26,269 bases of DNA, taken from a virus. The stretch is taken from IMG/VR virus record IMGVR_UViG_3300033144_003003, positions 1 through 26,269 of that record; one strand, 5' to 3'. The notes beneath the pieces are model-generated. The model did no database searches. It was not told the origin of the DNA and saw nothing but the letters and a program-made list of their open reading frames with translations. Position numbers and translations under genes: made by a program. Every line of letters starts with the position of its first letter. Position 1 is the first letter of the stretch. Positions 1,658-17,725 of this stretch are shown one piece after another.

Positions 1658-4600
1658 CTATTCCAGTCGCAATGCCCGTCTTGAAACTCTTACGATGTTC
1701 TCGTACTGAAGATCAAGTCTGGTTCTCTTTTCTGCAGAAGTCATTCTGTCGTTTTCATAGATGAGATTTATTTTTGCCCATCTCTTAGAAAGGTCATCAA
1801 CAGCACGATTGATCCGGCCCTTTTGCAGCAGCAGATCCCGATTCTGCCGACGAAGACGCTTCCGCTCGTCTGGACTGCGAGCCACCTTGATCTGCGCGTC
1901 GACGCCCTGGATGGAGTCGCGCAGCTCATAGAGGTTGACGATGCTCTGTGACGAACCGCGCGGGTTGCTGGAGATGAAGACGGACAGGCCAAGTAGGTCC
2001 GGAGCATTGAGGGTGTTGTTCTCCGGATCGATGGCGAAGTCGACCAGCTCGGTGGCTTTGCGGCCCATGCCGGCGGTATAGCCGTAGATCAGATGATCAA
2101 TCTTGGCCGGCGAAGTGTTGGTCCATTTGCCGATCAGCCTTGAGATGTCGCTATTCCAGGGATTCGCCTGCTGCGGCGGCGGCAACTTAGCATCCCAGTC
2201 GCTGACGATGTTCTTCTGGCGAAAGAAGTCGTAGTCTGCGTAGACCTCCAGCAGCGGCATGACTCCTGTCGGCATGATCGAAAAGGCCGCATCGGCTCCG
2301 ATCCCCTCAATGCTATCTCCAAGATCGCCCATGTTGGCGCGGTCATTGTTCCAAAAGTGACTGAGCACCTGGGTGATTGATGTGCCGCCCAGGAACCCGT
2401 AGGTGTGCGGCTTCGGGATCCGCCCGATCCCGTCATACCCTGGGAACCGGAAGTGCCAATACGCCCGCTTCTCCCATTCGGGAATCTCTTGGTACTCTTC
2501 GTCATCCTTCATCAGCGCAAAGAATACGATCGACGGCGTGGTGACGTAGACGATAGTGTGGCTGATCCAGCTGATCGGATCCTCCTTGAATTTCTCGACA
2601 GCGCGCAGATTGCCCTGAATGGATGCGTTGAAGAACGCAGCGACTCGGTTGAAGGCGCGGGCCGTAGTGCCGCCGCGCTGGAAGTCGGTGGTTACGTTGC
2701 GCGCCTCAAAGCCGGCATAGGCGCGAGCCTCGCGCTCCGACATGTTCTCTCTAAGCCCCTTCTTGTGTGCCTTGAGGAATTCACCGACGCGGGTGCTGTT
2801 CTCCATGACATCGGACATAAACCGCATTCCCTCAATAGGGTTCTTAATCGTACTGCCGAGAATCTTCTGCACGCGGTTTTCGGTGGCTTTTTTCAGACTC
2901 TTTTGCACCTCTTTGCGGTCCTGCGCTGCGAATGTCGATTGGCCGGCTCCGGAAGCTTTGAACGCTCGGTACGCATCGGTGTTCAGCATAATTTGAGCGA
3001 GTCCACCGAACGTGTCCCAAAAAGGAATGAATCCGCTTTCCGATTGGATGCCGGCGGTGATAGTGTCGCGAACCGGATTGCGAATGATGAAGTTCGGCAC
3101 CAGCGTGGCGCCAGAGCGCAGGATGCGCGCGGCCTGGATGAAGATGTTGACCTGCAACTGGCTGATGGCTGGATGCGAACGGGTCAGCGAATCGTACATG
3201 GCTGCGTCATGCATCTCATAGAAACGGCGCTTGCCGTCCACAACGATCGTCATTATGCGCTCGTTGTCAGAAAACCTGCCGGTCTTATTGAAGATGTTCA
3301 GGATTAGATCCGGATCGATCTCACCTGCCCGCGTTCCCACTTCAATGACTTCTCCGTCCTCCTCGAGTAACAACCGGAACTTTTTTATTTTCTGCCGTTT
3401 TGCTTTGATCCGGTAACGCTTCAGCTCCTTGATGATCTCTTTGATCATCACGTTTGATGGACGCAACGGAGGTGGCTCCTGCTCCGCAATGAAGACCCCC
3501 ATCCCTGGCACTTCTGCCGCCTTGGCGATTGCAAGCATTGTGCGCTGCCGGAAGACGGCATGGGCAAACGTGTATGTGTTCTGCAGCAGCGCCTCAAATG
3601 GCGGGATCACTGTTTCTTCAGCACCCTTGGTGATCGCGGCCAGCGGACTCGGCGTTCCCTTCTTGCCGCCCTTTCCCCTGTTGTCCGCGCCGACAGTGCG
3701 GTCCAGCAGCCGGTGGAATGGGACATAGGCCGAATTCAGCCTAAGTATCGTGTTACGCTCGGCGTCAGTAATCACATTCTCGACCACAAGTGCTTCAAGC
3801 ATTGCATCGGTGTAGTCTCTGAGTCGAGCGTTCCATTCAGCAGCCTGCTTCCCGAAGTCGCGTTCAAAGTCGCGCACAATGGCATGTGCAGTCGCTAGGT
3901 TCTCAGGGGTAACGAGTCCACGCGGACCCAAGTCCTGTACTTCACGCCTGCTTTTCAGATATGTTTGATACTGGACCGTGAGCTTCGCCTTGTGAACGTC
4001 GCGCAGCAGCGAACCGAGTCCTTCCTTGCTCAACTGGTTTCCTGCTAAGTCTTGAACGCCATTATCCACCCAAGTGCTGCCGTAGTCGACACTGCCGCCC
4101 ATCATGCGCTCCATCTTATAGAAGTCGGCGCTCATCTTGATCTTCCCGCCCTCGTAGATCTCGTTCACCGCCTGCTTCAGCGGGAACAAATCATCAAGCC
4201 AATGGATCTGAAAATCCTGCCAGGTATCACGCAGGCTAGTCGGCTGGCGCGGATCCCAGGCGATATCAGCCATGCCCCGCTCCATTGGACTCATGCGCTG
4301 GATAGCAAGCATCTGACGCCGGTGAACCATTACGGCTTGATCCATCTGCGCATGACCGATCAGCTCGGTGAAGTACTGGTGGTAGGCTGGCGCTGCCTTC
4401 CTGGCCGCTGGCTCGTTGGTGACGTAGATCCTGTAGAACTCAGCAATGCCCTCAATGCGGAGCTTTTTCGGGTCCATTGATCCGCCGGCGGTTTTTTCGC
4501 CAAGTGGCGCCAGTTCGTCATCAAAGAAGGTGCCTATCGACTCGCGGATCCCAAGCACCTTATCGATCCCGTGACCGATTTCATGCGCGACTGTATGCAT

Positions 4601-7600
4601 GTCGCCATAGGTCTTTGACCGAATCTCGTGGGACTCCTTATATCCCCTCTCTTTATCGATGATGATACCGCGACGAAAGAATCCCAGGACGTTTTTGGCG
4701 CGGACCTTGCCGATGGCAAGCTTAAAGCCAAACTGCTTTTCCAGCTCCTTGCGCATCTTGCGAATCGACTTGTTGGTTTCTTTTTCGTTTGGCAGATGCC
4801 CAAGAATCGGATACGGCACGAGTTCGGCAAGAGTGCCTGGAAGCGCCGCTCGGACATTCATCTCATCGATTGTTTTATCGGTCTTCGCGCGCTCCTCCTT
4901 TTCAAAGGTTTCGCCCGTGAAGGACTCGTCCACTTCCGCGTCGGAGATTTGGGTGCGGACCAGGATCCCGTCAGCGACATCAGAGAACAGCTGGAACATC
5001 GAATCGGTCTTGCTGATCGACACTTCATCAACGCCGACCTGTCTCATGGTGCCAAGCAGCTCAAGCATGTTCTGAGCATTGACGCTGCCAATGTATGTAG
5101 CCCCTTCGATGTTTGAGGATTCATAAGCCGACTGCTCTCCCGTCTCAAGGCCGTTCGCCTTAGCCGCGAGCGTCCCATCCTTGGCAATGTAGAGCGCCAC
5201 ATCAGCGGCCCTGGTTCCGCGTTCGACAACTGCAGCCGCCTGCGCAAGGATCTCCCACGCTTGGGCGGTGTTGAACTTCCCGACCGACTCTCCCGTCCTG
5301 GCGATCATCTCTTCGAGGTTTTTCAAACCAGCCTGCACTGACGAATCATTGTCAGTAGGCTGCTTTTTGAAGGTCTGTCCTTTTGAGGGATAGACAAAGA
5401 TTGCCTTGTAGCCGTCACTTACGACAAGCCGCCCCTTGGAGTCACGGTGGAAATCGCTGACGATCTTGGCAGAACCATCGTCGGAGAGGAGCTTCTTAAT
5501 CACCTTCTTTATCTCGGCCTCGACCCTGCCCAGCTTGCCCAGCTTTGGCACCTTGAGCAACGCACCTTTTTTCGCCTTGGATGGCTTCTCGCTTACCAGT
5601 GCGGCGAAACCGCCAAGCACCGGCGCCCTGCGAGTAACGACTGACTTCGGGCCGGTGGGAGTGTCGACGGTCTCCCTCGTATCCTTGCCGGCCTTCCGCG
5701 AAGTCTTCTTGACGTTCTCCCTGAATTGTTCGAGTGCCAATTCGTCGTTCTTGACCATGAACGTACCGTCATTGGGAACCTCAATCGTGATCACACCTTC
5801 GCCGTCAGGGCCGGCGGCAATAGCTTCGTCAACAGCCTTGTCAACGAATGCGACCATTGCCTTGCGGCGGGCAGTACCCGCGCGAGCTGTCTCGGCAGCG
5901 CGGGATGGGAGAGGAGACGGTGCCGCCGGCGCAGCAGGCGCAGCGGGCGCAGCAGGCGCCACCGCAGCTTCTCCAGTTTTCATAGTAATGGCTGGTCCGT
6001 CCAATACGAAATCTGTCTTGCCGCGCTTCACTCCGATACCGTGGTAGATGCCCAGAGGGACTTCGTCAAGCTCGCCAAGGTTCAGCTTCTCCTCAAGCGA
6101 CTCAAACACCGATCCATCGTAATCCTCTAACGGGATCAGACGATATACTTGGATCATGCGGTCGTTGTCGACGGTTCCTTCATTCACAGCAACGTGTAGA
6201 TCGCCATCGAATTCAAAGGCGTTTTTGATCTTGCCGGCGCGAAGCTGTTTCTTGTTTAAGCTTTTCGCGGCCGCAGCGGCTATCGCTTCACTCGGCGTGA
6301 TTAATGTGTCAAAATCTTCAAGTTCTTCGGCTATCTCATCAACTGCCTCTACGTCTAACGCTGCACCCGCTTCGCGCAATTCGGCAAGGCTGGCGTCGAT
6401 AGCTTCGATCTGCCTGCTAATCTCCGCGAGCCGGTCTGTATCCACAGCTTTGGTCTGATCATTTATTACGGCCTGTTGCTCGGCCACAAGGATGTCGCGC
6501 TCATGCCGCAATTCCGCAAACCGCCGGCTATTTGCCGCCAATCGCTGCTGTGCGGTCTCGGCGGCAGGAGCGGCAGTTTCAACTTCACCCGCCACCCTCT
6601 CATCGGCGAAGATCACCGGCACCGCCTCGAGACCCAACTGCTCTGCGGCCAGGGCTCGGTGGATGCCCTCCTGGTTGACGCTCCCGTCGCGTATCGTAAG
6701 CGACAAGACCTCGGCTTCATTGTTGCGTAAGTTCCCCAGCGACCGCTCCATACCCGCCTGGTCCTGCCGGCGGATGTCAAGCTGCTGCTCGCCGTCGAAA
6801 CCCTGCCGGCTGAAAGCTTCAGACACTAGGCGCAGGTACTCGGCTGGGGCCATAAGCCTCAATTCGCCGCCGCCGGTGATAAACTCTTTATCGTTGGGGG
6901 TCGCGCCAGACTCCTCACGGATGGTGCCAAAGCCCTCGACCGTGTCGCCCTCTTTGGCGGTTCCCCGATCGCGCACACTGAACCGGGGCGCGGCCGCTGC
7001 CTCAGCGAATACCGGAACCGTGAATTGCTGCAGGTCAACAAGGTCGACCAGCTTACTCCGGCCGACTCCTTCAATCTGTTCAGCGACAAACTTGAATTCC
7101 AAACTAAGAGAATTCACCTCACCGTCCGCCACATCCTCGCCAGCGTTAATGCGACCTTCCAATGCGTCAGCCAATTCAAGAGTTGCTGGCTTGATCGTCA
7201 AGCCATTTTCGCCTGCATAAGCTTGCAAGGCACGAAAATGTAATATCGCCATAGGCACGGATGCACCAAGACCAAAATTCGGAAGTTTAAGAACGTCAAT
7301 CGATGCCATTGTCGCGACTACACCGGATGGCGCCGGCGCTGCCGGAGCCTCATCAACATCCAACCCAATGACCTGCGAATCGCCAAACACTCGACGGAGC
7401 CTCTTGACGGATCCTTCGCCATCGAAAGACACATCAGCCTGCTGCGGGAACATGATGATCACCGCATCATGACCAGCGGCGATAATAGCTGCGCGCGCCT
7501 TGTCGCGTGCAGCATTCGCTTCCGGCGAACCCACTTCCGAATCCAATCCGATATTGATCAGATCTTCAAGCTCTGGGATCTGCTCTATGGCGTTTTGATC

Positions 7601-10204
7601 GGATGTAATAACCAGTGGATTCTTTGCCGATATTGTTAACTCCTGCACTTCACCAAACTGAGCAGCGGTGAGCGGGTCTAATGCAGCGTACAAGGCTGGG
7701 CCAAGTATCGCCTGTTCGCCACGACCACCCGTAATCGTCCCGCCGCCCGTCCCTCTATGGACTGCAACAGTGATCGGCTGTCCCGTTTCCGGCAATTTCC
7801 CTTCTGCATCACGTAGTACATCGGCTGCGTTCATCTCAGCCATGTGCCGCTCGGCCTTTTCAGGGGAAAAGCCTCGCCCCTCCAGCGACTCGCGCACTAT
7901 CTTGACGAATTCCGGATCGGGCGGCTCAAACTTTACCGAAGTGAATTCTGTTGTTTCAACTGCTGCTGTTGCTGGGGCTGGCTCTGGCGAAACAAGCTTT
8001 CGCACCCTCACCAAAATATCGGCGGCGGTAGCGTCGGGCTTCACCCTAAACGATATTTTCGTGCGACCCTTCGCAGCGGTCCGCTGAATGATCACCTCTC
8101 CCGATTTGGTGCGCGTGATCGACTCCACTACAGCAGTGAGATCGGAAGGCACCGCTATATCCGGTGCTGCGGCTGCGGCTGGGGTGGTGGCTGGTGCTGG
8201 TGCGACTGCGCCGGTCGAAAGGAACGGCGCCAGGGATGGGGGGATCGTGAACGGGGTCGCGCGGATAGTATTTAAGATGCGATCGCGCCCAGGGAAACTA
8301 CCACTAGCAAGCTCCTGCGATGTGGCTCCCAGCGATGATGCCTCTGCGAGTAGCTGGTTTGCGAGATTGTGGTCCACTTGCCCGCCGGCGACCACTTGTT
8401 CTTCCAGCTCTTGAGCCGCCAGCAATGCCTGGCTCGAAACTTCGAGCTGGTTGGCCTCTGCTGCGTTCAGGGTCGCTTCAAATAAGAGCAGGGCGTTTAT
8501 CGCGCGGGAGCGTTCCGGCGTTGTCTCGCTGACGGATATGTCAGACAGTTGAACCGTCTCGCCTTCTGCTCCTTCTGCCTTGCGGGCGGCTATTGCCTCG
8601 TTCATCAGCGCACGAAACTTGGCCTCATATGCCGCTGCCGCTTCCTCGCTTATATTCCGGGCAATATTATCGCGCTTCTCTGATGCGGCACGGCTAAAGG
8701 CTGGGGACTTCTTGAAATCCTTCTCTGCCTCTGCCTCCATCCTTGCTTGATCAAATTCTACTTCCGGCGCAGCTTCTGCGGCAGCTTCTGCAGCTGGTTC
8801 TGCGGCTGGTTCTGCAGCCGGCAACTCCGGCGCTTCGATGTCGGCCAGGAAACTCTGCAGATCCCCAGCTACTTCGGCGCCTTCGGCCTGTCTCTTTACG
8901 TCCAGCTCCGCATCGATCTGATCTAAGAATGTCAGCAGCCCTTGCAAGTCCAGCTGGGCCTCTAAGATGCCGGATTCCTCCTTCTCTGCTTCCGTAAGCT
9001 TGCGGCCGCGCATAACAGCCTTCCTGGCGCGGATCCGCTTGAGATCCTTCGACAGCTTCTCGGCAATACGCCTCGCGTTTGTCACCCGCTCGTCGCCGCT
9101 GACGTTTACGAGACCACCAATGCTGGCACCAGGGATCTCAGCGATCGCCTCAAGGAAAATGGGGCCGACGCGGAACTCTTCGCCTGACGCCAGCTGCGCG
9201 ACAGCTTCACCACCACCACCCCAGCCGCCCTGCGCGAGCAGTTCGGCGAATGCAGCGACAAACTTTTGTCGCCGGCCAGTGGCTTTTGCCATCAGCTTAC
9301 CGGCCGTACCAACAGCGAGTGCATCAAAGATCGCAATGGGAATACCGCGCTGCAAGCCCTTCTTGCGGCCGCGCGCCATAAGTTCCTTATTCTCAAATGC
9401 TCTGATGATCGCATCGGGATCCTCAATGTCCACGCCCTCTTCGGCCATGATATCAACGATCGCATGACTGAACTCCAGAGTGCCACTGAATGCACCTATC
9501 GTAATCGGCACACCAAGAGGACCAAGGCGCTTGCCGAATGTGCCGGCCACAACGATACCTGGAGCAAACTGCGCAAGGCTCTCGGATAGCGTTTCTGTGA
9601 GCACTTGAACAGGCGCTTGGCGGAATGCCTCGACTGTCTCTTTAAGGGTCTTCGCCTGTCCGGTCGCAATGGTGGCTGGCGCTGCGGCAATCTTCGGATC
9701 CTCGACCAAGGCAGTGACCGTTGCGAGATCCTGTGCAGCTGCCGTTCCTGGCCGGCCAAGGGCAGACGCCAGCGCGCCTTCAAGAATGGCAGTTGCCTGG
9801 GAGACCCGCAAAGAACCGCGCGCCACCGATCTAGTCACAGTGCCGATCGATAATTTAGTGAACCGTTCGCCGGTCTCCTCATCGATGACGGAGGCAATCT
9901 CCGGATCCCGCGACTTAACGTGCTTCCGAATCAAACTCTGACGCTTGAGCGTTTGGTCGACCTTCTGAGCCAGCCGGAACGCAAGGGAACCTTCGTCTGC
10001 GACAGGCGGCGGGCCTAACTCTGGCACCGCGACATGCGCGCGCTTGATCAGATCAAGGCGATCGAAGTCCGCTCCATATTTTTCTGCGAAAACTCGCTCA
10101 GTATCCCTAAGCCAATTCTGCGCAACCTGTCGCTGCTGTGCGGGCGGTAGTCCTTGGTATGAGGGATCCTGCCGAACATCCTCAAACGGTATCGCTTCGG
10201 GCAC
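1658..10204 (-). CDS. Giant multidomain polyvalent ejection protein (about 2,848 aa)
   Basis: I place the start at GTG 10204: GGGAGG lies just upstream and the preceding TGA is one base away. The frame is open to 10243 (GTG), which would overlap the previous gene by 38 bases. Order of regions (approximate residues): helical N-terminus; hydrophobic Gly-rich segments 210-240, 285-305 and 322-368; coiled coil and PAAE linker 377-485; ADP-ribosyltransferase-like region 805-965 (VHRG at 815-818, then GPALYAALDPLTAAQFGEV); ParB-like region 1108-1205 (NQEGIHRALAAEQLG); coiled coil 1218-1295; Ala-Pro linker 1410-1433; possible sliding-clamp-like region 1560-1753; metallopeptidase with H1874-E-I-G-H1878; C-terminal LPD38-type region about 2340-2725 (NPVRDTITAG, FNASIQGN); basic coiled-coil tail. 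This is the architecture of phage 'polyvalent proteins', thought to enter the host with the DNA. At roughly 300 kDa it occupies the slot of T7 gp15/gp16 or the N4 virion RNA polymerase. No lytic transglycosylase or polymerase motif was seen. Confidence 0.85.
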   Translation of the reverse strand: MPEAIPFEDVRQDPSYQGLPPAQQRQVAQNWLRDTERVFAEKYGADFDRLDLIKRAHVAVPELGPPPVADEGSLAFRLAQKVDQTLKRQSLIRKHVKSRDPEIASVIDEETGERFTKLSIGTVTRSVARGSLRVSQATAILEGALASALGRPGTAAAQDLATVTALVEDPKIAAAPATIATGQAKTLKETVEAFRQAPVQVLTETLSESLAQFAPGIVVAGTFGKRLGPLGVPITIGAFSGTLEFSHAIVDIMAEEGVDIEDPDAIIRAFENKELMARGRKKGLQRGIPIAIFDALAVGTAGKLMAKATGRRQKFVAAFAELLAQGGWGGGGEAVAQLASGEEFRVGPIFLEAIAEIPGASIGGLVNVSGDERVTNARRIAEKLSKDLKRIRARKAVMRGRKLTEAEKEESGILEAQLDLQGLLTFLDQIDAELDVKRQAEGAEVAGDLQSFLADIEAPELPAAEPAAEPAAEAAAEAAPEVEFDQARMEAEAEKDFKKSPAFSRAASEKRDNIARNISEEAAAAYEAKFRALMNEAIAARKAEGAEGETVQLSDISVSETTPERSRAINALLLFEATLNAAEANQLEVSSQALLAAQELEEQVVAGGQVDHNLANQLLAEASSLGATSQELASGSFPGRDRILNTIRATPFTIPPSLAPFLSTGAVAPAPATTPAAAAAPDIAVPSDLTAVVESITRTKSGEVIIQRTAAKGRTKISFRVKPDATAADILVRVRKLVSPEPAPATAAVETTEFTSVKFEPPDPEFVKIVRESLEGRGFSPEKAERHMAEMNAADVLRDAEGKLPETGQPITVAVHRGTGGGTITGGRGEQAILGPALYAALDPLTAAQFGEVQELTISAKNPLVITSDQNAIEQIPELEDLINIGLDSEVGSPEANAARDKARAAIIAAGHDAVIIMFPQQADVSFDGEGSVKRLRRVFGDSQVIGLDVDEAPAAPAPSGVVATMASIDVLKLPNFGLGASVPMAILHFRALQAYAGENGLTIKPATLELADALEGRINAGEDVADGEVNSLSLEFKFVAEQIEGVGRSKLVDLVDLQQFTVPVFAEAAAAPRFSVRDRGTAKEGDTVEGFGTIREESGATPNDKEFITGGGELRLMAPAEYLRLVSEAFSRQGFDGEQQLDIRRQDQAGMERSLGNLRNNEAEVLSLTIRDGSVNQEGIHRALAAEQLGLEAVPVIFADERVAGEVETAAPAAETAQQRLAANSRRFAELRHERDILVAEQQAVINDQTKAVDTDRLAEISRQIEAIDASLAELREAGAALDVEAVDEIAEELEDFDTLITPSEAIAAAAAKSLNKKQLRAGKIKNAFEFDGDLHVAVNEGTVDNDRMIQVYRLIPLEDYDGSVFESLEEKLNLGELDEVPLGIYHGIGVKRGKTDFVLDGPAITMKTGEAAVAPAAPAAPAAPAAPSPLPSRAAETARAGTARRKAMVAFVDKAVDEAIAAGPDGEGVITIEVPNDGTFMVKNDELALEQFRENVKKTSRKAGKDTRETVDTPTGPKSVVTRRAPVLGGFAALVSEKPSKAKKGALLKVPKLGKLGRVEAEIKKVIKKLLSDDGSAKIVSDFHRDSKGRLVVSDGYKAIFVYPSKGQTFKKQPTDNDSSVQAGLKNLEEMIARTGESVGKFNTAQAWEILAQAAAVVERGTRAADVALYIAKDGTLAAKANGLETGEQSAYESSNIEGATYIGSVNAQNMLELLGTMRQVGVDEVSISKTDSMFQLFSDVADGILVRTQISDAEVDESFTGETFEKEERAKTDKTIDEMNVRAALPGTLAELVPYPILGHLPNEKETNKSIRKMRKELEKQFGFKLAIGKVRAKNVLGFFRRGIIIDKERGYKESHEIRSKTYGDMHTVAHEIGHGIDKVLGIRESIGTFFDDELAPLGEKTAGGSMDPKKLRIEGIAEFYRIYVTNEPAARKAAPAYHQYFTELIGHAQMDQAVMVHRRQMLAIQRMSPMERGMADIAWDPRQPTSLRDTWQDFQIHWLDDLFPLKQAVNEIYEGGKIKMSADFYKMERMMGGSVDYGSTWVDNGVQDLAGNQLSKEGLGSLLRDVHKAKLTVQYQTYLKSRREVQDLGPRGLVTPENLATAHAIVRDFERDFGKQAAEWNARLRDYTDAMLEALVVENVITDAERNTILRLNSAYVPFHRLLDRTVGADNRGKGGKKGTPSPLAAITKGAEETVIPPFEALLQNTYTFAHAVFRQRTMLAIAKAAEVPGMGVFIAEQEPPPLRPSNVMIKEIIKELKRYRIKAKRQKIKKFRLLLEEDGEVIEVGTRAGEIDPDLILNIFNKTGRFSDNERIMTIVVDGKRRFYEMHDAAMYDSLTRSHPAISQLQVNIFIQAARILRSGATLVPNFIIRNPVRDTITAGIQSESGFIPFWDTFGGLAQIMLNTDAYRAFKASGAGQSTFAAQDRKEVQKSLKKATENRVQKILGSTIKNPIEGMRFMSDVMENSTRVGEFLKAHKKGLRENMSEREARAYAGFEARNVTTDFQRGGTTARAFNRVAAFFNASIQGNLRAVEKFKEDPISWISHTIVYVTTPSIVFFALMKDDEEYQEIPEWEKRAYWHFRFPGYDGIGRIPKPHTYGFLGGTSITQVLSHFWNNDRANMGDLGDSIEGIGADAAFSIMPTGVMPLLEVYADYDFFRQKNIVSDWDAKLPPPQQANPWNSDISRLIGKWTNTSPAKIDHLIYGYTAGMGRKATELVDFAIDPENNTLNAPDLLGLSVFISSNPRGSSQSIVNLYELRDSIQGVDAQIKVARSPDERKRLRRQNRDLLLQKGRINRAVDDLSKRWAKINLIYENDRMTSAEKRTRLDLQYENIVRVSRRALRLE

Positions 10205-10205
10205 A

Positions 10206-11777
10206 TCACCCTCCCTGGGAGGCGCCCGCGTCTCCACGAGCACCCGCGTCTCCAGGACTGCCAGGGGGCAATCCTATTCTAAGCTTGTCTGCTTCCTGCA
10301 GGCCGGCGCCGCCACTGGCGTTGCCCAGCAACTCTCCACGGACCGAGTTTATGAGCTGGGCCTGCGTAGTCTTGTCCTCACGACTAAACTCCTCAAACGT
10401 GATCAGTTCTTCATCAAGCATCCCGCGAGACACAAGAATTTTAAAAGCGCGCCTGCGTTGATCCAGTGTTAGCGTGTCAAAGAAGGCTGTCGCTCCGATC
10501 GTCGGCGTTGGCTTGGCTGCGGCCTTGGCCTTCTCCTGTGCCGCGAACTGAACCAATGCTGTCCGCTCTGCGAGCTTTCTTCCCTCCACCATGGCGGTGA
10601 GTCGCTTCTCCAGTTCTTGGTTGATCGGGTTATTGTCCATCATCTTACCGATAAAATCTTCAAGCGGCATGATGACCTGCTGCGCATGCCCATTGTCATC
10701 GATGTCATTCACAGTGATTGAGGCATCGCGGAAAGAGGACACGCCTTCAGTGCCAATCTGTAGTGGCTGAATAATCGCATCAAAGAAACCAGCCTGCCGC
10801 GCCAATCCCTCCAGTTGCTCCTTCAAGAGCTGCGAGCCTTCGCTGTTAATCGTGCCGGCGCGCTCCCGTCTGACCGCATCAAAATATCCATGGCCAAGCG
10901 CCAACTCGTTCCTGGGCGGACTATTGACAGGCCAAGCGTTGATGATCTCCGTGCCTTCATTATGTGCGTCAACCTTGGTGAAGCCTGCGGTAATGGCGCG
11001 CGTAGTGAATCCCGCTAAGGCAATCCCCTCACCATCATCGGCTCCAGCCGCCTCGGCCAATTCAACAGCTGTTTCTTCAGCCCACTTCCTCATTGCTTCG
11101 TGCTTGATCGTCATGAAGTTTTCCAGGTTGATCTCTTCATCGATCGTGCCTTCGACGTTACGGATACGAGTGCGATCAGCCGTGATGAAAAGCCCATACT
11201 GATTGGCAAGGCGATCGGCGGCATCACCGCTACTGCGGGCACCACCAGGGAAATCGGACTCCCCCTCAAAGACATCGCCCTCACGGAAGATCAATTCAGC
11301 AAGCGCGTCCATGACAATCACCATCTCGCCGTGCGGTGTACCCTGTATCCTTTCGACGGTTTTATCAGTCAGGAGGTGCGCCGCGTTTTTCTTTTTCATC
11401 GTTTCGTGAACGAACCCAAGACTCTGCTGCTTTGAGTTATTCATCGCAATCGTAATGTCTTTATCAAGTGCAGCATTCTTGTCGTTGAATCTGAGCATGT
11501 CGGCGTCACGCTCTAGCTTATCAACCGCGTATTCTTCTGTCCGCAGGATGAGATCTTGACGGCGCTTCTGCTGCTTGCGCTTCGCAGACAGTTCGTCGCG
11601 GCGAAAGAGCAAGTCGTTGATGCCCTGACCGGCGGTGAATCCCCCTGGCCCCTGCTCTATCGTCAGGGCAATGGGGATAGCGGTCTCGACCACGCCTTGA
11701 GTGACATCACCCACTGCGCCAAGAAAGTTCTTCAGCCCCGACACTGCCCTGCTCCCTACTGTTGGATCACTAGCCAT
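10206..11777 (-). CDS. Internal virion (ejection) protein, collagen-like C-terminus (523 aa)
   Basis: ATG at 11777 overlaps the preceding stop by eight bases (ATGGCTAG) and has GGAGG nine bases upstream. The protein is largely alpha-helical, with a Gly/hydrophobic N-terminus (FLGAVGDVTQGVVETAIPIAL) and a basic, coiled-coil-prone stretch around residues 65-130 (ELSAKRKQQKRRQ onward). A C-terminal helical segment contains DTLTLDQRRRAFKILVSRGM. The last residues are collagen-like (GSPGDAGARGDAGASQGG), encoded by an imperfect 18-base tandem repeat. Size, helical character and position directly before the giant protein suggest an internal core or ejection protein comparable in role, not in sequence, to T7 gp15. 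No enzymatic motif was seen. The giant gene starts one base after this stop. Confidence 0.68.
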   Translation of the reverse strand: MASDPTVGSRAVSGLKNFLGAVGDVTQGVVETAIPIALTIEQGPGGFTAGQGINDLLFRRDELSAKRKQQKRRQDLILRTEEYAVDKLERDADMLRFNDKNAALDKDITIAMNNSKQQSLGFVHETMKKKNAAHLLTDKTVERIQGTPHGEMVIVMDALAELIFREGDVFEGESDFPGGARSSGDAADRLANQYGLFITADRTRIRNVEGTIDEEINLENFMTIKHEAMRKWAEETAVELAEAAGADDGEGIALAGFTTRAITAGFTKVDAHNEGTEIINAWPVNSPPRNELALGHGYFDAVRRERAGTINSEGSQLLKEQLEGLARQAGFFDAIIQPLQIGTEGVSSFRDASITVNDIDDNGHAQQVIMPLEDFIGKMMDNNPINQELEKRLTAMVEGRKLAERTALVQFAAQEKAKAAAKPTPTIGATAFFDTLTLDQRRRAFKILVSRGMLDEELITFEEFSREDKTTQAQLINSVRGELLGNASGGAGLQEADKLRIGLPPGSPGDAGARGDAGASQGG

Positions 11778-12399
11778 TTAATTGTTCCTCCAATGCATCT
11801 TGGAAGGTACGGACCCGCATGGTGCCGTCTTCCTGCTCAATAAAACCGACAGGCGCTCGACGGGGCGCTTGCGACTGGACAACGCCACCTTGCGGAACCT
11901 GCGTTGGTTCACCCTCCAGAAAATTGACCAGCCCGCGCGTTTGTTCGATGCTCTTGATCGTCGCCTGTACTCCGCGAGCAGTCTTCGCTGCGGTGCCAGT
12001 TCCGGTCGTGGCGCCTGGAGTGCCGGCGATCCCAGTGACAACACCCTTGCCGGCCTGCAGTACTGTACCCAAAGCCGAAGGCGGGGGTGCACCGGGGGTG
12101 CCAGCTGTACCCGAAGGCGGTGGTGCGCCGGGGGTGCCAGCAACGCCCTTTCCGCCACCAAGCCCCGCCGCTCCTTTAGCTGCTGCCGTTCCGGCTCCCG
12201 CCGGCGCTGCCGCTGCTGCCGCTGCCGGCGCTGCTGCCGCTGCCGGCGCTGCTGCCGTTCCGGCCGCTGCCGCCGGCGCTGCTGCCGGCCCAGCGGACAC
12301 CGCTGCCGTCGCCGCTGTCGTCGCCGCCGTCGCAGTCCCAGTCGCCGTCGCCGTCGCCGCCGCCGAAGTGACTTGAAGTATGCCTGCTAATGGACCCAT
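11770..12399 (-). CDS. Ala/Pro/Gly-rich low-complexity virion-associated protein (209 aa)
   Basis: ATG at 12399 has GGAGG seven bases upstream and overlaps the acetyltransferase-like gene by 13 bases. Residues 10-75 are nearly all Ala, Thr, Pro and Gly. A collagen-like part follows with GTPGAPPPS twice, 12 residues apart. Only the last 60 or so residues look like a normal domain (QATIKSIEQTRGLVNFLEG and EEDGTMRVRTFQDALEEQL-type acidic helix). The stop overlaps the next start (ATGGCTAG). The ribosome-binding site and the coherent C-terminus argue that it is translated, but the repetitive DNA leaves competing frames open on the other strand. It probably provides a flexible linker or stalk for the ejection apparatus; this is inference from composition and position. 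Confidence 0.6.
   Translation of the reverse strand: MGPLAGILQVTSAAATATATGTATAATTAATAAVSAGPAAAPAAAAGTAAAPAAAAAPAAAAAAAPAGAGTAAAKGAAGLGGGKGVAGTPGAPPPSGTAGTPGAPPPSALGTVLQAGKGVVTGIAGTPGATTGTGTAAKTARGVQATIKSIEQTRGLVNFLEGEPTQVPQGGVVQSQAPRRAPVGFIEQEDGTMRVRTFQDALEEQLNG
12075..12141. repeat. Tandem imperfect 31-bp direct repeat (period 36)
   Basis: Copies at 12075-12105 and 12111-12141 differ at two positions. They encode the two GTPGAPPPS collagen-like units of the Ala/Pro/Gly-rich protein. The repeat is in frame (36 bases = 12 residues), so gain or loss of a unit would lengthen or shorten the linker. Confidence 0.8.
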
Positions 12400-12869
12400 T
12401 CTAATGCCTCCATGAGTGAGCAGGGAACATCCACGCCATTGCGGGTGTAGATCCCCCGAATTGTTCCTGTTTTCTTGTAGCCCAACCGGTCCGCGAACCC
12501 GTGTATGCGGCGGTTAGTTTCGGGCAATAATAGGATGACCTGCTCATAGTCGGCGTCAGCCTTAACCCTTTCGATTGACAGCTTGGCCGCTTCCAGTGTG
12601 GGGGTTCCCCAGAACTGCCGGAAGATCGATATATGTCCTTCGATCTGAAAGTCGCTGAAGTACGTTGCGTAACAAAGGCCCATCGGCTTGCCGTCCGTGA
12701 CCGGACAGTAGTAATAGTCCGTTCCCATAAGCCAGCGGTCGATCCGGTTAAACATCCCCGCAGGTGTCCGATCATCATCATCAAGCTGCCGCTGAATGTA
12801 ATCAACAGCGAGCGTATTCCATATGTAATTGATGCCATCGTCATTCTTTGGCACCTCCATGATTTCCAT
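12387..12869 (-). CDS. GNAT-like acetyltransferase-fold protein in ejection cassette (160 aa)
   Basis: ATG at 12869 overlaps the previous stop by one base (TAATG). The protein has the length and order of a GNAT fold: N-terminal helix with VPKNDDGINYIWNTLAV, central strands (DYYYCPVTDGKPMGLCYATYF), a helix resembling the acetyl-CoA-binding region (GTPTLEAAKLSIERVKA), then ILLLPETNRRIHGFADRLGYKKTG, where 'N+RI+.fa+rLGYk.tG' is a typical GNAT ending. The usual Q/R-x-x-G-x-G/A loop is not clear, so catalysis is uncertain. Comparable GNAT-like or DUF2824 proteins sit among injection or internal proteins of P22-like and related podoviruses. A structural or ejection role is therefore as likely as enzymatic modification of a host target. 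Confidence 0.7.
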   Translation of the reverse strand: MEIMEVPKNDDGINYIWNTLAVDYIQRQLDDDDRTPAGMFNRIDRWLMGTDYYYCPVTDGKPMGLCYATYFSDFQIEGHISIFRQFWGTPTLEAAKLSIERVKADADYEQVILLLPETNRRIHGFADRLGYKKTGTIRGIYTRNGVDVPCSLMEALEWVH

Positions 12870-13342: not shown

Positions 13343-15163
13343 TTAGCTAGCTTCGCAGAAAGGCGCTCCGCGTTCGCTCAGATGGAATACCACCATGAAC
13401 CCACGGATCTCGCCCTTTGCTTCAAATTTGAATTGAAACCGCTCCCCGCGCATACGGTCGTTGAAGAAGAGCGGCCGGTTGCCAGTCCGATCGCTCGTTG
13501 ACTGAAATTTCTCAACGCCATTGGCGAAAGCAGTTACCTTCACCAATCCGGTGGCGTCTATCCAAATTGATCTTAACTGCTTTGTCTCATTAACGCTGTT
13601 GAACGAATATTCGGGACTTGTCCAGCTGAACTCCAAATCAGCGCCGGCATCTGTCACTTCTGTTTCCCCCGAAGCCTTGCGCAGCAGCAGCCGATCGTTG
13701 TCCTTGTCATATGCGGCAAGATCCGCGTCGAACGAACGCTTGTAGATGACCCGCTCCTTTCTGAAATCGATGCAGATCGCAAAGCCATCATAAAAGAGGA
13801 AGTAGACATCGTTGGCGACCTCGGCAAACTTCGCACCTTTCGGAAAACTGAAGGTGCCCTCGGTTAGCACCTGCAGGATCTCGGCCTGGAAGTCGGGAAC
13901 GAACCCATACCGGCAAAGACCGTCATTGCTCATCCACACCGGCGCGTTCTGCAGATAGCTGATCGTCCGGTAATTGGGGCATCCCTGCACGTTGGGCAGC
14001 TGCCGATTGACGATGTCGGTAATGCCCAGGCCGGTAACCTTGTTGGTGTTGTTGCTGGTGAAGACCAAAATTCCGTCTTTCTGTCGCGCGATTCCGGTGA
14101 CTTCATCGCGGAACTCAAGAAAGTCCAGAAAGCTCCAGCTATGCGGGCTGCTCTGTTTGCTCAGGTACACCCTGTCGCCCACAGCCAAATAGAACCGCTC
14201 GTCAACCTCCGTCAGAAACTTGCCGCCCACTCGCGTGAACGAACCGTCCTCATTGGATTTGAAGATGGGAGGATACGCCAGATGGCTGAGATTGATCTGA
14301 CGCGCCGTCAAGATCTCTTCATCGCCGCGCGTATCAACATAGGATGTTGTGCCGACATCGATTGTATCTACAAAGAACAGCGCACCGCCGTCAGCGATCG
14401 AACGGAAAATATTAATCTTGGTGACTGCGCTCTCAACGGGCGTCGGGAAATCCGTAAGTACAATCTCCTGAAACCCGCTCACCGTGATCGTCAACAGCGT
14501 GACATCCTTCCAGAGGCGCCCGTTATCAGCGCCTGGAAACTGATCGGGCCGAACCGGCTGTCGACGCTCCGTCTGGGGGGTGCCGGCAAAGCTCTGTATG
14601 CACTCCCATGTCTTGCCGATGTAGTTGACCCGATCGCCGGCCGTGTATCCGTATCGCTTCCGATGGACATAGTGCGTGGTGTTGAACCCATCAACATCAC
14701 CCTGAGTCAATACAGTAGCGACAATACGTGTATTGACTACAGAGAAGAGCGGCACGCTCTCTTGGATGAAGGGAGCGGACTCCCAGCCTTCAGGCGTCTC
14801 AAACGTGATCAAATACTTGTAGATCCCAGTGAACCGATCGCCAAACACATTCGGCTTGACGGAAGGCTTGAGGTTGGGCGGGGTCAACCCGAAGTAACCC
14901 AACGTACTGGTCAGCTCGCCGGTATCGTTATTTGAGCTGTAGAACTCTTCGCCAAACTTAACCACAGACAGCGTGCCGGTGGTGTTCTGATTATCCAGCT
15001 CCTCGACCGAATCGCTGGTCCGGACTGACGCACGAAAAGAGCGCAAGGATCCGTCAACGATGTCCGCATCAAGAGTGTCTGTTGCGAACTGCGACTTAAG
15101 CAGATGCGGTCGGATCCGATTAACTTCACCGCCGTTGAAAGTTTGAACGCCAAATTGTGCCAT
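13343..15163 (-). CDS. Tail nozzle/tubular protein with carbohydrate-binding-like insertion (606 aa)
   Basis: ATG at 15163 follows the preceding TAA with no gap (TAAATG), so translation is probably coupled; the ribosome-binding site is weak. The N-terminus (MAQFGVQTFNGGEVNRI) and repeated beta-strand blocks are typical of podoviral nozzle proteins of the T7 gp12 or P22 gp10 type, which fold largely as a beta-propeller. Examples are FLTEVDERFYLAVGDRVYLS, SPHSWSFLDFLEFRDEVTG and DGILVFTSNNTNKVTGLG. Residues about 172-221 (YGYTAGDRVNYIGKTWECIQ, ending GRLWKDV) look like a CBM5/12-type carbohydrate-binding module inserted between two strands. The protein would form the distal tail tube that contacts the cell and gates DNA release. 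The internal protein genes start directly downstream. Confidence 0.75.
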   Translation of the reverse strand: MAQFGVQTFNGGEVNRIRPHLLKSQFATDTLDADIVDGSLRSFRASVRTSDSVEELDNQNTTGTLSVVKFGEEFYSSNNDTGELTSTLGYFGLTPPNLKPSVKPNVFGDRFTGIYKYLITFETPEGWESAPFIQESVPLFSVVNTRIVATVLTQGDVDGFNTTHYVHRKRYGYTAGDRVNYIGKTWECIQSFAGTPQTERRQPVRPDQFPGADNGRLWKDVTLLTITVSGFQEIVLTDFPTPVESAVTKINIFRSIADGGALFFVDTIDVGTTSYVDTRGDEEILTARQINLSHLAYPPIFKSNEDGSFTRVGGKFLTEVDERFYLAVGDRVYLSKQSSPHSWSFLDFLEFRDEVTGIARQKDGILVFTSNNTNKVTGLGITDIVNRQLPNVQGCPNYRTISYLQNAPVWMSNDGLCRYGFVPDFQAEILQVLTEGTFSFPKGAKFAEVANDVYFLFYDGFAICIDFRKERVIYKRSFDADLAAYDKDNDRLLLRKASGETEVTDAGADLEFSWTSPEYSFNSVNETKQLRSIWIDATGLVKVTAFANGVEKFQSTSDRTGNRPLFFNDRMRGERFQFKFEAKGEIRGFMVVFHLSERGAPFCEAS

Positions 15164-15988
15164 TTATGCAGTCGGCCTGAATACTGTGAATGTTACTTCT
15201 GTGGATGCTGGGATGTTTGCGTCGAACGTGTATGTAATTTCATCAGTATCGGTGATCTCGGCTGTCAGCAGAGCTTCGGTTGTCGTGCCCGTGCGAACTG
15301 TGGCCTGAAGTCGGTCCGTAACTAAAACACCTGGAGCGCCGCTGATCGCTTCGATTTCAGTGGCGGCGCCACCGCCAAGAATGTGTACATCAGATGCGAT
15401 GACGAAATGCGAGGGCGGCGTGCCGACTCCATCCATGTCAAGCTGCGTCTTGCCGACTGATGCGGTATCCAGCTTGTCTTTGGTGATAGTGCCGGCCGCG
15501 ATCTTTGGACCTGTCACCGCAAAGCCGGCGAGCTGGCCTGTATCGACAGACAGCAGCGCCAACTTGGCGGTGGTTACCGCCAAGTCGTTAATCTTTGCCG
15601 TGATGACGGCATCATCACGGATTGTAACTGACGAAACAGCTTCTGTTCCTGGCGTCTGATCCAGCTTGCCGGTCGAAACGCCCTCGTCTTTTATCTGCAG
15701 GACACCAAGCAAGAATTGCAGCGTGATGTTATCGGGGATGCCGATCTGATTCATCTCGTTAAGGATGAAGGCAATGGCTGCATCGACATCCGTTGCAGTC
15801 AGGACTGTATCAGCAGCGCCTTTAAGCGCACGAGTCGCCACGCGCAGCGGTATGTGAGACGCATTCAGCTTCTTAGCAGCCCTAGAGTCGCCAGTGGAAG
15901 TCGGCACAACTACAGTAGCATCCGTCCCTTCCAAATCGCGGTGAAGGTACTCCATTGGAATCTTTGTTTTGCGTATGTCTGAAGGCAT
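15164..15988 (-). CDS. Tail fibre-like repeat protein (274 aa)
   Basis: ATG at 15988 has AGGAG six bases upstream, fused to the adaptor stop (TAGGAG). Residues about 100-190 contain a degenerate repeat of the type 'I.DDAVITAKINDLAVTTAKLA', continuing with TGQLAGFAVTGPKIAAGTIT and KDKLDTASVGKTQLD. Short repeats with alternating 'K/Q-L/I' of this kind are common in phage tail-fibre and head-fibre shafts. The N-terminal 60 residues include RDLEGTDATVVVPTSTGDSR and may attach to the tail. The C-terminal region is strand-rich (ATVRTGTTTEALLTAEITD), ending FTVFRPTA. Its place between adaptor and nozzle suggests a fibre bound at the tail-head junction. No enzymatic motif was seen. Confidence 0.65.
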   Translation of the reverse strand: MPSDIRKTKIPMEYLHRDLEGTDATVVVPTSTGDSRAAKKLNASHIPLRVATRALKGAADTVLTATDVDAAIAFILNEMNQIGIPDNITLQFLLGVLQIKDEGVSTGKLDQTPGTEAVSSVTIRDDAVITAKINDLAVTTAKLALLSVDTGQLAGFAVTGPKIAAGTITKDKLDTASVGKTQLDMDGVGTPPSHFVIASDVHILGGGAATEIEAISGAPGVLVTDRLQATVRTGTTTEALLTAEITDTDEITYTFDANIPASTEVTFTVFRPTA

Positions 15989-15997
15989 TATGATCTC

Positions 15998-17725
15998 CTA
16001 AAAAAAGTATGTCCTGTTGCCTGTGTGATGTTGGTTCCAGCCCTTGAGCCGCCGCGCTGATTCGCGATTACGACGGGCAATGAATTTGGCGAGGTGCCTC
16101 TGGCTTTTGAGCAGACTTGCTTCGTCGCCGGCCTTTTCAAAGGCGCGGAACAGCGCGTAGTCGATGATCGCGCGCCACTCAACTATTTCGATCAGATCAG
16201 CGCGGGGGCAGCGAACGTACCAAACCTTTGCCTGCTCTTCCGCTTCGTAGATCGCGGCGAAGCAGCCACGGTCATCAGCAAACGTATAGAGATCATCTTC
16301 GCCGATCAGATCGGCCAAGCAGCCCTCTTCTTGATCAAACTCGACACCGTCCCAATACGCAACAACCCCCACTTCAGGGTTGGAGGATAGAATCGCGTAA
16401 CTGAATGGCGGGACACCCACCGTTTCGGTAAAATGATAAAGCGTATCACGGTGGGCTGCTGAACGGTTGTACCGTGGCACAGAATTGCTGGGGTAGTCAT
16501 CGGGGGAATTAATGCCCTCCACAACGGTGTCATTCGCTATATCATAGCGACTCGTGAAGATCACCGGCGAGTCAGCGGGGCCAAACCATACATAGTCCTT
16601 ATCGCCCGCCAACCAGGTATTAGTCCCGCCGGTCAGACCGGTCGTTGCCGTGATCTGAGTTCCCAAGGCGTCATTAGCCGTATCGACCGCGTACAAAGAC
16701 TCAACACCCAATACCAAGACGTTCGCATAAAGCACATCATCGACCCACACTGCGCCATACGTGTCATTGGTCGTGATCTGCGTTGCGCCAGAAGAGGGAA
16801 GGCGATACAATCCATTAGACCCTGTCGCCAAGTGCATATCTTCCCCGCCCTTGTCCTCGTAAGCCCATTGGTCAAACCCGCCCCCAGATAGAATTGTTGT
16901 TTCGGCAAAGCTCGTATGGGCGGTACGCATTATGTCGTTACTCGCCCCCTCCCACCAGATCCTAAAAGGGGTACACGGCGATAGATTACGGATAAAGGTG
17001 TTTGAGGAGCTTCCGTAGATAGAGGCGGTCTGGCCAAAACCATCGGCGCGATACAAATCAACAGAGCCGTTTGCTATGTATATCGCTCCACCAAGAGAGC
17101 CAGTATTATGGCGAAAGGGGATCACGGAAAAATCAGTCGCCCCCGTGACTCCATGCGTCCAGCTATCCACCAAAACAGGCTCAAGTCCATCAATATTGTA
17201 GCGACGTAAAACCGTCTCGCTTAGAACCCACAGCAACCCGTCCTGTACGCGCATTCTTTTTAATGAGTCATTTTCCAAATACACAACGGTGTGAATATTA
17301 ATTGGCAGTACCTCGGTTGGCGCTGCTTCAATACTGGGAGACGGTTTTGGATAGAAGCGAAGCCGGCGCGGCCCGTCGAGATCCATGTAGTAATAGCTGG
17401 GATTCGGGCCTTCCGTCTGCCGGTAGCTGCTGCCGAACATCGACGCCAGTGTTCGTGAATCGATCGGGTCGACAATCAGCCCCTCCTTGTTCTCGACGCG
17501 AAGAACGTCCAGCAGGTCGTTGGGGAGATCGTAGACCTCTTGATTCTCCTTGCTGACAATCGGGAACTCGGCGCGCAGCTCGCCGGTCTGTCGAGCAAAC
17601 TCCAGCTGCCCCTCGTTGAGATAATCGCGTAACTCATCGACGGTCCAGTAGTTGCCTTCGCAGTCCTGTAACGTGCGCTGTACGCGCGGGACAAGATCAT
17701 CAAATATGATTGTGTCTTCAGGCAT
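15998..17725 (-). CDS. Head-tail adaptor protein with large beta-propeller-like insertion (575 aa)
   Basis: ATG at 17725 overlaps the preceding stop by eight bases (ATGCCTGA), with AGGAAG upstream. Residues 1-135 look like a podoviral head-tail adaptor: EDTIIFDDLVPRVQRTLQDC, WTVDELRDYLNEGQLEFARQ, DLPNDLLDVLRVE, RRLRFYPKPSPS. Residues about 500-575 look like its C-terminal half: VWYVRCPRADLIEIVEWRAI, IDYALFRAFEKAGDEASLLK, then a basic tail. Such proteins are usually about 200 residues and bind under the portal ring. Between the halves lie about 360 residues of strand-rich sequence with repeated propeller-like motifs (DGLLWVLSETVLRRYN, SNGLYRLPSSGATQIT, WVDDVLYANVLVLGVESLY, DDLYTFADDRG). The insertion point is where one strand should run into the next, so the core can still fold. 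The insert could be displayed outward around the neck. Confidence 0.75.
   Translation of the reverse strand: MPEDTIIFDDLVPRVQRTLQDCEGNYWTVDELRDYLNEGQLEFARQTGELRAEFPIVSKENQEVYDLPNDLLDVLRVENKEGLIVDPIDSRTLASMFGSSYRQTEGPNPSYYYMDLDGPRRLRFYPKPSPSIEAAPTEVLPINIHTVVYLENDSLKRMRVQDGLLWVLSETVLRRYNIDGLEPVLVDSWTHGVTGATDFSVIPFRHNTGSLGGAIYIANGSVDLYRADGFGQTASIYGSSSNTFIRNLSPCTPFRIWWEGASNDIMRTAHTSFAETTILSGGGFDQWAYEDKGGEDMHLATGSNGLYRLPSSGATQITTNDTYGAVWVDDVLYANVLVLGVESLYAVDTANDALGTQITATTGLTGGTNTWLAGDKDYVWFGPADSPVIFTSRYDIANDTVVEGINSPDDYPSNSVPRYNRSAAHRDTLYHFTETVGVPPFSYAILSSNPEVGVVAYWDGVEFDQEEGCLADLIGEDDLYTFADDRGCFAAIYEAEEQAKVWYVRCPRADLIEIVEWRAIIDYALFRAFEKAGDEASLLKSQRHLAKFIARRNRESARRLKGWNQHHTGNRTYFF

Follow-up and report, generated by a model that had tools for sequence, protein, structure and literature searches.

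A giant polyvalent protein with conserved ends and an exchangeable middle, encoded by a metagenomic short-tailed phage

The giant gene described here comes from a metagenomic short-tailed phage and, judged by its domain content, its 2,848-residue product is a phage-type polyvalent protein. LPD38, a zincin-like metallopeptidase and an ADP-ribosyltransferase (ART)-like domain occupy one chain, and at least two domains of unlike function, drawn from the set described for the class, mark a polyvalent protein. Both ends of the chain are conserved among phage proteins, and the peptidase combines conserved motifs with a predicted zincin fold. We regard the protein as an ordinary polyvalent protein, though large and instructive, in which the ART is divergent and several parts are orphans. 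It gives a poorly described class a clear anatomy, in which the ends are fixed and the middle is exchangeable.

Gene and genomic setting

The window (the whole stretch of DNA that was analysed) is the entire 26,269-base IMG/VR record, probably a fragment. An earlier note, made from the sequence alone, had described a single 2,848-residue open reading frame, and this frame is real and lies unbroken on the minus strand (Table 1). Internal stops are absent throughout and the base composition is even. An in-frame GTG at 10243, 39 bases upstream, would add 13 residues and is a possible alternative start.

The gene sits among virion genes, which is also expected of polyvalent proteins. Neighbours on the same strand encode the terminase, portal, scaffold-like protein, major head protein and SU10-type adaptor, together with a tail/internal-virion protein and a tail-fibre-like protein. 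The order of capsid genes, tail genes, an acetyltransferase-like gene, two more genes and then the giant gene is much like that in JC1 and Pelagibacter phages, and the 160-aa gene occupies the place of the relatives' acetyltransferase gene. The 523-aa and 209-aa genes had no sequence match among the genes of JC1 (gp67/gp68), BA3, Vibrio, Pelagibacter and other relatives.

Some neighbours have features of their own. The product of positions 15998-17725 (minus strand) fuses an SU10-type adaptor domain (residues 8-134; the adaptor profile has 194 positions) to about 440 more residues. The product of 13343-15163 (minus strand) belongs to PHROG 511 (internal virion protein) and weakly matches carbohydrate-binding module 5/12 at residues 173-191 (E 3e-4). 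In a single L058 ORF, three overlapping stretches match residues 98-183 of the 274-aa tail-fibre-like protein (15164-15988, minus strand), which suggests the presence of repeats.

Table 1. Positions of the giant gene, its domains and the adjoining genes in the window
Feature	Window positions	Strand	Remarks
Whole coding sequence, 2,848 aa	1658..10204	-	GTG start at 10204, stop 1658-1660
N-terminal Gly-rich domain, residues 200-440	8885..9607	-	common to ~70 giant phage proteins
ART-like domain, residues 797-948	7361..7816	-	R817, Y839, D913 at H-Y-D positions
ParB/Srx-like domain (weak), residues 1110-1203	6596..6877	-	EGIHRALAAEQLG-VPV motif
Coiled coil, residues 1214-1300	6305..6565	-	1214-1290 predicted with pLDDT ~86-96
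Small beta-rich region, residues 1315-1412	5969..6262	-	relatives not found
Helix-hairpin-helix-like region, residues 1436-1510	5675..5899	-	one relative, in L234
Orphan region, residues 1511-1790	4835..5674	-	sliding-clamp reading unsupported
Zincin-like metallopeptidase, residues 1805-1966	4307..4792	-	H1874, E1875, H1878, E1918
Conserved C-terminal module, mostly helical, residues 1985-2848 (~860 residues)	1661..4252	-	
Pfam LPD38 (PF18857), residues 2568-2727	2024..2503	-	E 8.6e-29
523-aa gene directly upstream of the giant gene	10206..11777	-	candidate second internal protein, by position
209-aa gene	11770..12399	-	candidate internal protein, by position
160-aa protein	12387..12869	-	weak GNAT / head-morphogenesis / DUF2824 matches

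The conserved ends

The LPD38-type region recognised earlier was borne out by Pfam, with 101.4 bits against a curated cut-off of 27, and was the sole Pfam match in the C-terminal part. LPD38 occurs C-terminally in many phage proteins. The conserved part extends beyond LPD38, from about residue 1985 to 2848, an extent that the earlier note had missed, and PHROG 9854, which has no assigned function, spans residues 2314-2845. By tblastn, 59 phage records, including those of Thalassomonas, Vibrio, Shewanella, Bacillus and Pelagibacter phages, match the last 450-1,000 residues, and in no record does the match extend over 80% of the query. Local searches of 5,238 ORFs from fetched loci found the module at the end of 186 ORFs, with the metallopeptidase in 96 of these; this sample was collected by searching for the same parts, includes some duplicate contigs and gives no population frequencies. 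Some shorter relatives (~1,240 aa) consist of the module alone, with the peptidase absent. With the C-terminal pair alignment as query, nothing was found in sequenced bacterial genomes.

In a model of residues 1560-2750 (59 sequences), the peptidase and the greater part of the C-terminal module were predicted with confidence. Foldseek found no match to the C-terminal model in the PDB under E 0.1, and the list from a second look was filled by the peptidase, so that the C-terminal part may still have a known fold. The module is probably a common part that docks in the head or serves as a carrier through the ejection machinery.

At the other end, residues 200-440 form a domain that had also been overlooked. 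Some 70 giant phage proteins match it in their N-terminal parts, and several of them have LPD22 or ART-PolyVal. The two ends occur together in the giant protein and in L069, L071 and L197. A membrane role for the N-terminal domain is our guess from its Gly-rich character.

The metallopeptidase

The metallopeptidase that had been proposed from its HEIGH motif is supported by motif conservation and by the predicted zincin fold. HEIGHG (1874-1879) and EGIAEF (1918-1923) are kept in relatives; among the sampled ORFs, 120 of the 121 peptidase matches retain HExxH, and an EGxAE motif is conserved along with it. Residues 255-397 of the model resembled zincin peptidases (VIA Z 8.8, rmsd 3.3, 124 residues aligned to 4dv8); this agrees with an earlier report in which peptidases of polyvalent proteins matched 4dv8 by profile (Iyer et al. 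2017, PMC5512222). Phage P1 DdrB is reported to be processed before packaging and the N4 polymerase is not (PMC5512222). The peptidase described here probably cuts its own chain, before packaging or after entry. Such self-cleavage cannot be general, because about half of the sampled proteins with the C-terminal module lack the peptidase.

The middle of the protein

The ART-like region suggested previously could be linked to ART-PolyVal through intermediate sequences; a direct Pfam match and the family histidine were both missing. Pfam gave no match in this segment up to E 10, and the ART-PolyVal (PF18760) cut-off was not reached; NCBIfam gave nothing meaningful, and tblastn with the segment found no match in phage records. 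The segment matches ORFs L184, L255 and L243 at 1e-15 to 3e-8, and an iterated profile search that started from it reached accepted ART-PolyVal domains, including that of Limnohabitans phage DC33. By hhalign, residues 805-948 aligned to ART-PolyVal with 97.7% probability (E 2e-12) when intermediates were included, and residues 808-919 with E 1e-3 when they were not. As Pfam alone is blank here even at E 10, the region is confirmed through intermediates only. ART-PolyVal is defined by His, Tyr and Asp (Iyer et al. 2017, PMC5512222). In the giant protein this active site is incomplete: R817 replaces the histidine, and Y839 and D913 are retained. Arginine stands at the same position in L184, L243 and L255, where R-Y-D is conserved. 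From these residues, the ART-like domain may be altered or inactive. The DC33 record (L012, PQ492659.1) is 39 kb long, encodes a 3,125-aa polyvalent protein and files the phage under Inoviridae, which looks like wrong taxonomy.

The ParB-like region that had been claimed has a short motif match and one similar phage protein in its favour; neither Pfam nor structure search confirmed it. EGIHRALAAEQLGLEAVPVIF at residue 1179 resembles ParB, and the G-x-H/R-R motif of the ParB/Srx superfamily is present. A profile of Octadecabacter virus DB2 gp6 and four LPD38 giants matched residues 1177-1202 (E 7e-5, probability 63%), and gp6 itself matches the region at about 1e-4. L255, one of these four giants, has a sub-threshold ParB_N match (20.7 bits versus a cut-off of 26.3). 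Strands and helices are predicted in an order that suits the beta-alpha-beta arrangement of ParB/Srx, at modest confidence (model pLDDT ~55-77), and the coiled coil filled the fold-search list. The ParB pair alignment found nothing in IMG/VR. A DdrB-like ParB identity was rejected: PF18763 matched neither in the Pfam scan nor to the three-relative profile. These data weakly suggest a ParB/Srx-like domain, not of the DdrB type, at about residues 1110-1203. The gp6 gene of Octadecabacter DB virus 2 (L014, 2752-4233) lies near the terminase gene and encodes a 493-aa protein with both a ParB-like and an ART-PolyVal-like region (E 8e-4).

The Ala/Pro-rich linkers of the earlier note were found at residues 446-496, 648-698 and 1397-1454; of its coiled coils, only one is clear (~1214-1290). 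Several middle regions have no counterpart in any library searched. A sliding clamp at 1560-1770, which a weak Pfam match and inspection by eye had brought up, was not supported. This region has no IMG/VR relatives and no meaningful PDB sequence matches, its pairwise score to a clamp was weak (p ~0.02-0.03), phage mini-clamp profiles did not match it, and neither model folds it confidently. The small phage proteins L274-L278 (~180-195 aa) resemble only part of a bacterial sliding clamp.

Probable delivery from the virion and alternative explanations

We consider it likely that the giant protein is packed in the virion and delivered from it with the DNA. The virion location is inferred from the gene position and from the presence of JC1 gp69 in virions, so that the 'ejection protein' of the earlier note stands as an inference from synteny and homologues. 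Burkholderia phage JC1 gp69 and Bcep22 gp75 (DarB-like) share with the giant protein an LPD38 C-terminal module and a similar gene position; JC1 gp69 differs in having transglycosylase-like, methylase and helicase regions in place of ART and ParB. The C-terminal profile matches gp69 at 8e-61. Mass spectrometry of CsCl-purified JC1 virions detected gp69 (4,515 aa, carrying LPD38) with 51 unique peptides, and its score ranked second among the proteins (PMC9144972). JC1 genes 67 and 68 (196 and 510 aa) precede gp69 as the 209- and 523-aa genes precede the giant gene, without sequence similarity. P1 DarB, at 250 kDa, is packaged as well, and its first 30 residues target it (PMC9024508).

In the course that we propose, the C-terminal module would dock the protein in the head or carry it through the ejection machinery, and the N-terminal domain may work on membranes as the protein passes. 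The peptidase, cutting before packaging or after entry, would free the middle parts; once in the host cell, the ART-like and ParB-like domains could target host proteins and DNA or nucleotides. Should the C-terminal module prove to serve delivery in general, the injection of very large enzymes by short-tailed phages would be easier to understand.

Other readings of the gene were weighed against this one. The protein might be a structural conduit like P22 gp16 or T7 gp16, forming a DNA channel, with middle domains that are degenerate and have no enzyme activity. The location downstream of a DUF2824 / head-morphogenesis-like gene, the short relatives that keep the C-terminal module without the peptidase, and the loss of the ART histidine to arginine would all suit a conduit. 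We nevertheless think it unlikely, since HExxH is almost invariant among the peptidase matches, R-Y-D is conserved in the three ART relatives, and exchange affects the middle domains and spares the ends, a pattern expected of effectors.

Production in the infected cell as an unpackaged host-takeover or anti-defence protein appears less probable still. Several enzyme-like domains would fit such a role and the virion placement here is by analogy, but the gene belongs to a structural block that shares its strand with the capsid genes, and the homologous LPD38 giant of JC1 is a virion protein. That an assembly artefact joined pieces of two phages is scarcely credible: the N- and C-terminal ends do match mostly separate sets of proteins, yet the frame is uninterrupted over an evenly composed sequence, and both ends co-occur in three other proteins.

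A possible link to the N4 virion RNA polymerase

The giant protein was also compared with N4 virion RNA polymerase gp50, which is injected. Both proteins are giant, and in both a zincin motif precedes a large helical part at the C-terminus; gp50 carries an RNA polymerase, unlike the giant protein, and homology between them stays below accepted thresholds. According to a preprint (PMC12633501), a C-terminal HExxH of the N4 polymerase is followed by a large helical domain with no known structural relatives. N4 was picked for comparison after this preprint.

Comparison of the C-terminal profile with six N4-type sequences by hhalign gave two colinear matches (E 0.008 and 0.006), one between residues ~1895-1936, near EGIAEF, and N4 ~2283-2324, the other between ~2459-2551 and N4 ~3359-3450. 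The hhalign score was 36.7 (E 0.0064, probability 6%) versus 29.0 for the best of 120 column shuffles, none of which scored as well; this shuffle test covers the N4 comparison alone. A third, weaker match appeared in a single-sequence comparison, between the other two and in the same order. Because the HHalign probabilities are 6-15%, we treat the match as a lead and not as a result. It is conceivable, though doubtful, that the peptidase and LPD38 C-terminal module share common ancestry with C1-C2 of the N4 polymerase, one ancestral delivery module having been joined in many short-tailed phages to unrelated cargo (polymerase, methylase-helicase, ART, ParB-like). The C-terminal module opens a testable connection with the N4 polymerase, for whose C-terminal domain no known structural relative is reported (PMC12633501).

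Relationship to known polyvalent proteins

The polyvalent-protein layout recognised in the earlier note agrees with Iyer et al. 2017 (PMC5512222). Phage-type polyvalent proteins described there share with the giant protein many unlike domains per chain, a zincin, an ART, LPD38 and a late-gene location; the giant protein differs in that its ParB-like region is not DdrB-like and its ART has Arg for His. The ART, ParB and peptidase profile matches on which the earlier note had staked its reading were found, for ART via intermediates and for ParB weakly.

The 2,013-aa L184 ORF (IMGVR_UViG_3300023223_001433) shares the ART, the metallopeptidase and the whole C-terminal module at 34-36% identity (36% over residues 1809-2845, 34% over the ART region). 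It lacks the stretch 960-1800, with the ParB-like region, the coiled coil and the orphan region, and blastp found no match between the two N-terminal parts. The suggestion that the combination of domains may be new did not hold: L255 and L243, both LPD38 giants, also carry ParB-like, ART, metallopeptidase and LPD38 parts, so the parts are already known as a set. In these two ORFs ParB precedes ART, unlike in the giant protein, and the other middle parts differ. Relative to the sequences searched, what is novel is the domain order and regions 1315-1412 and 1511-1790, for which no relative was found.

An even larger protein of 3,597 aa is encoded at 2126-12916 of L267, with two ART-PolyVal stretches, RadC, a methylase-like match, a zincin peptidase and LPD38. 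In Iyer et al. 2017 (PMC5512222), RadC is reported only from polyvalent proteins of conjugative elements.
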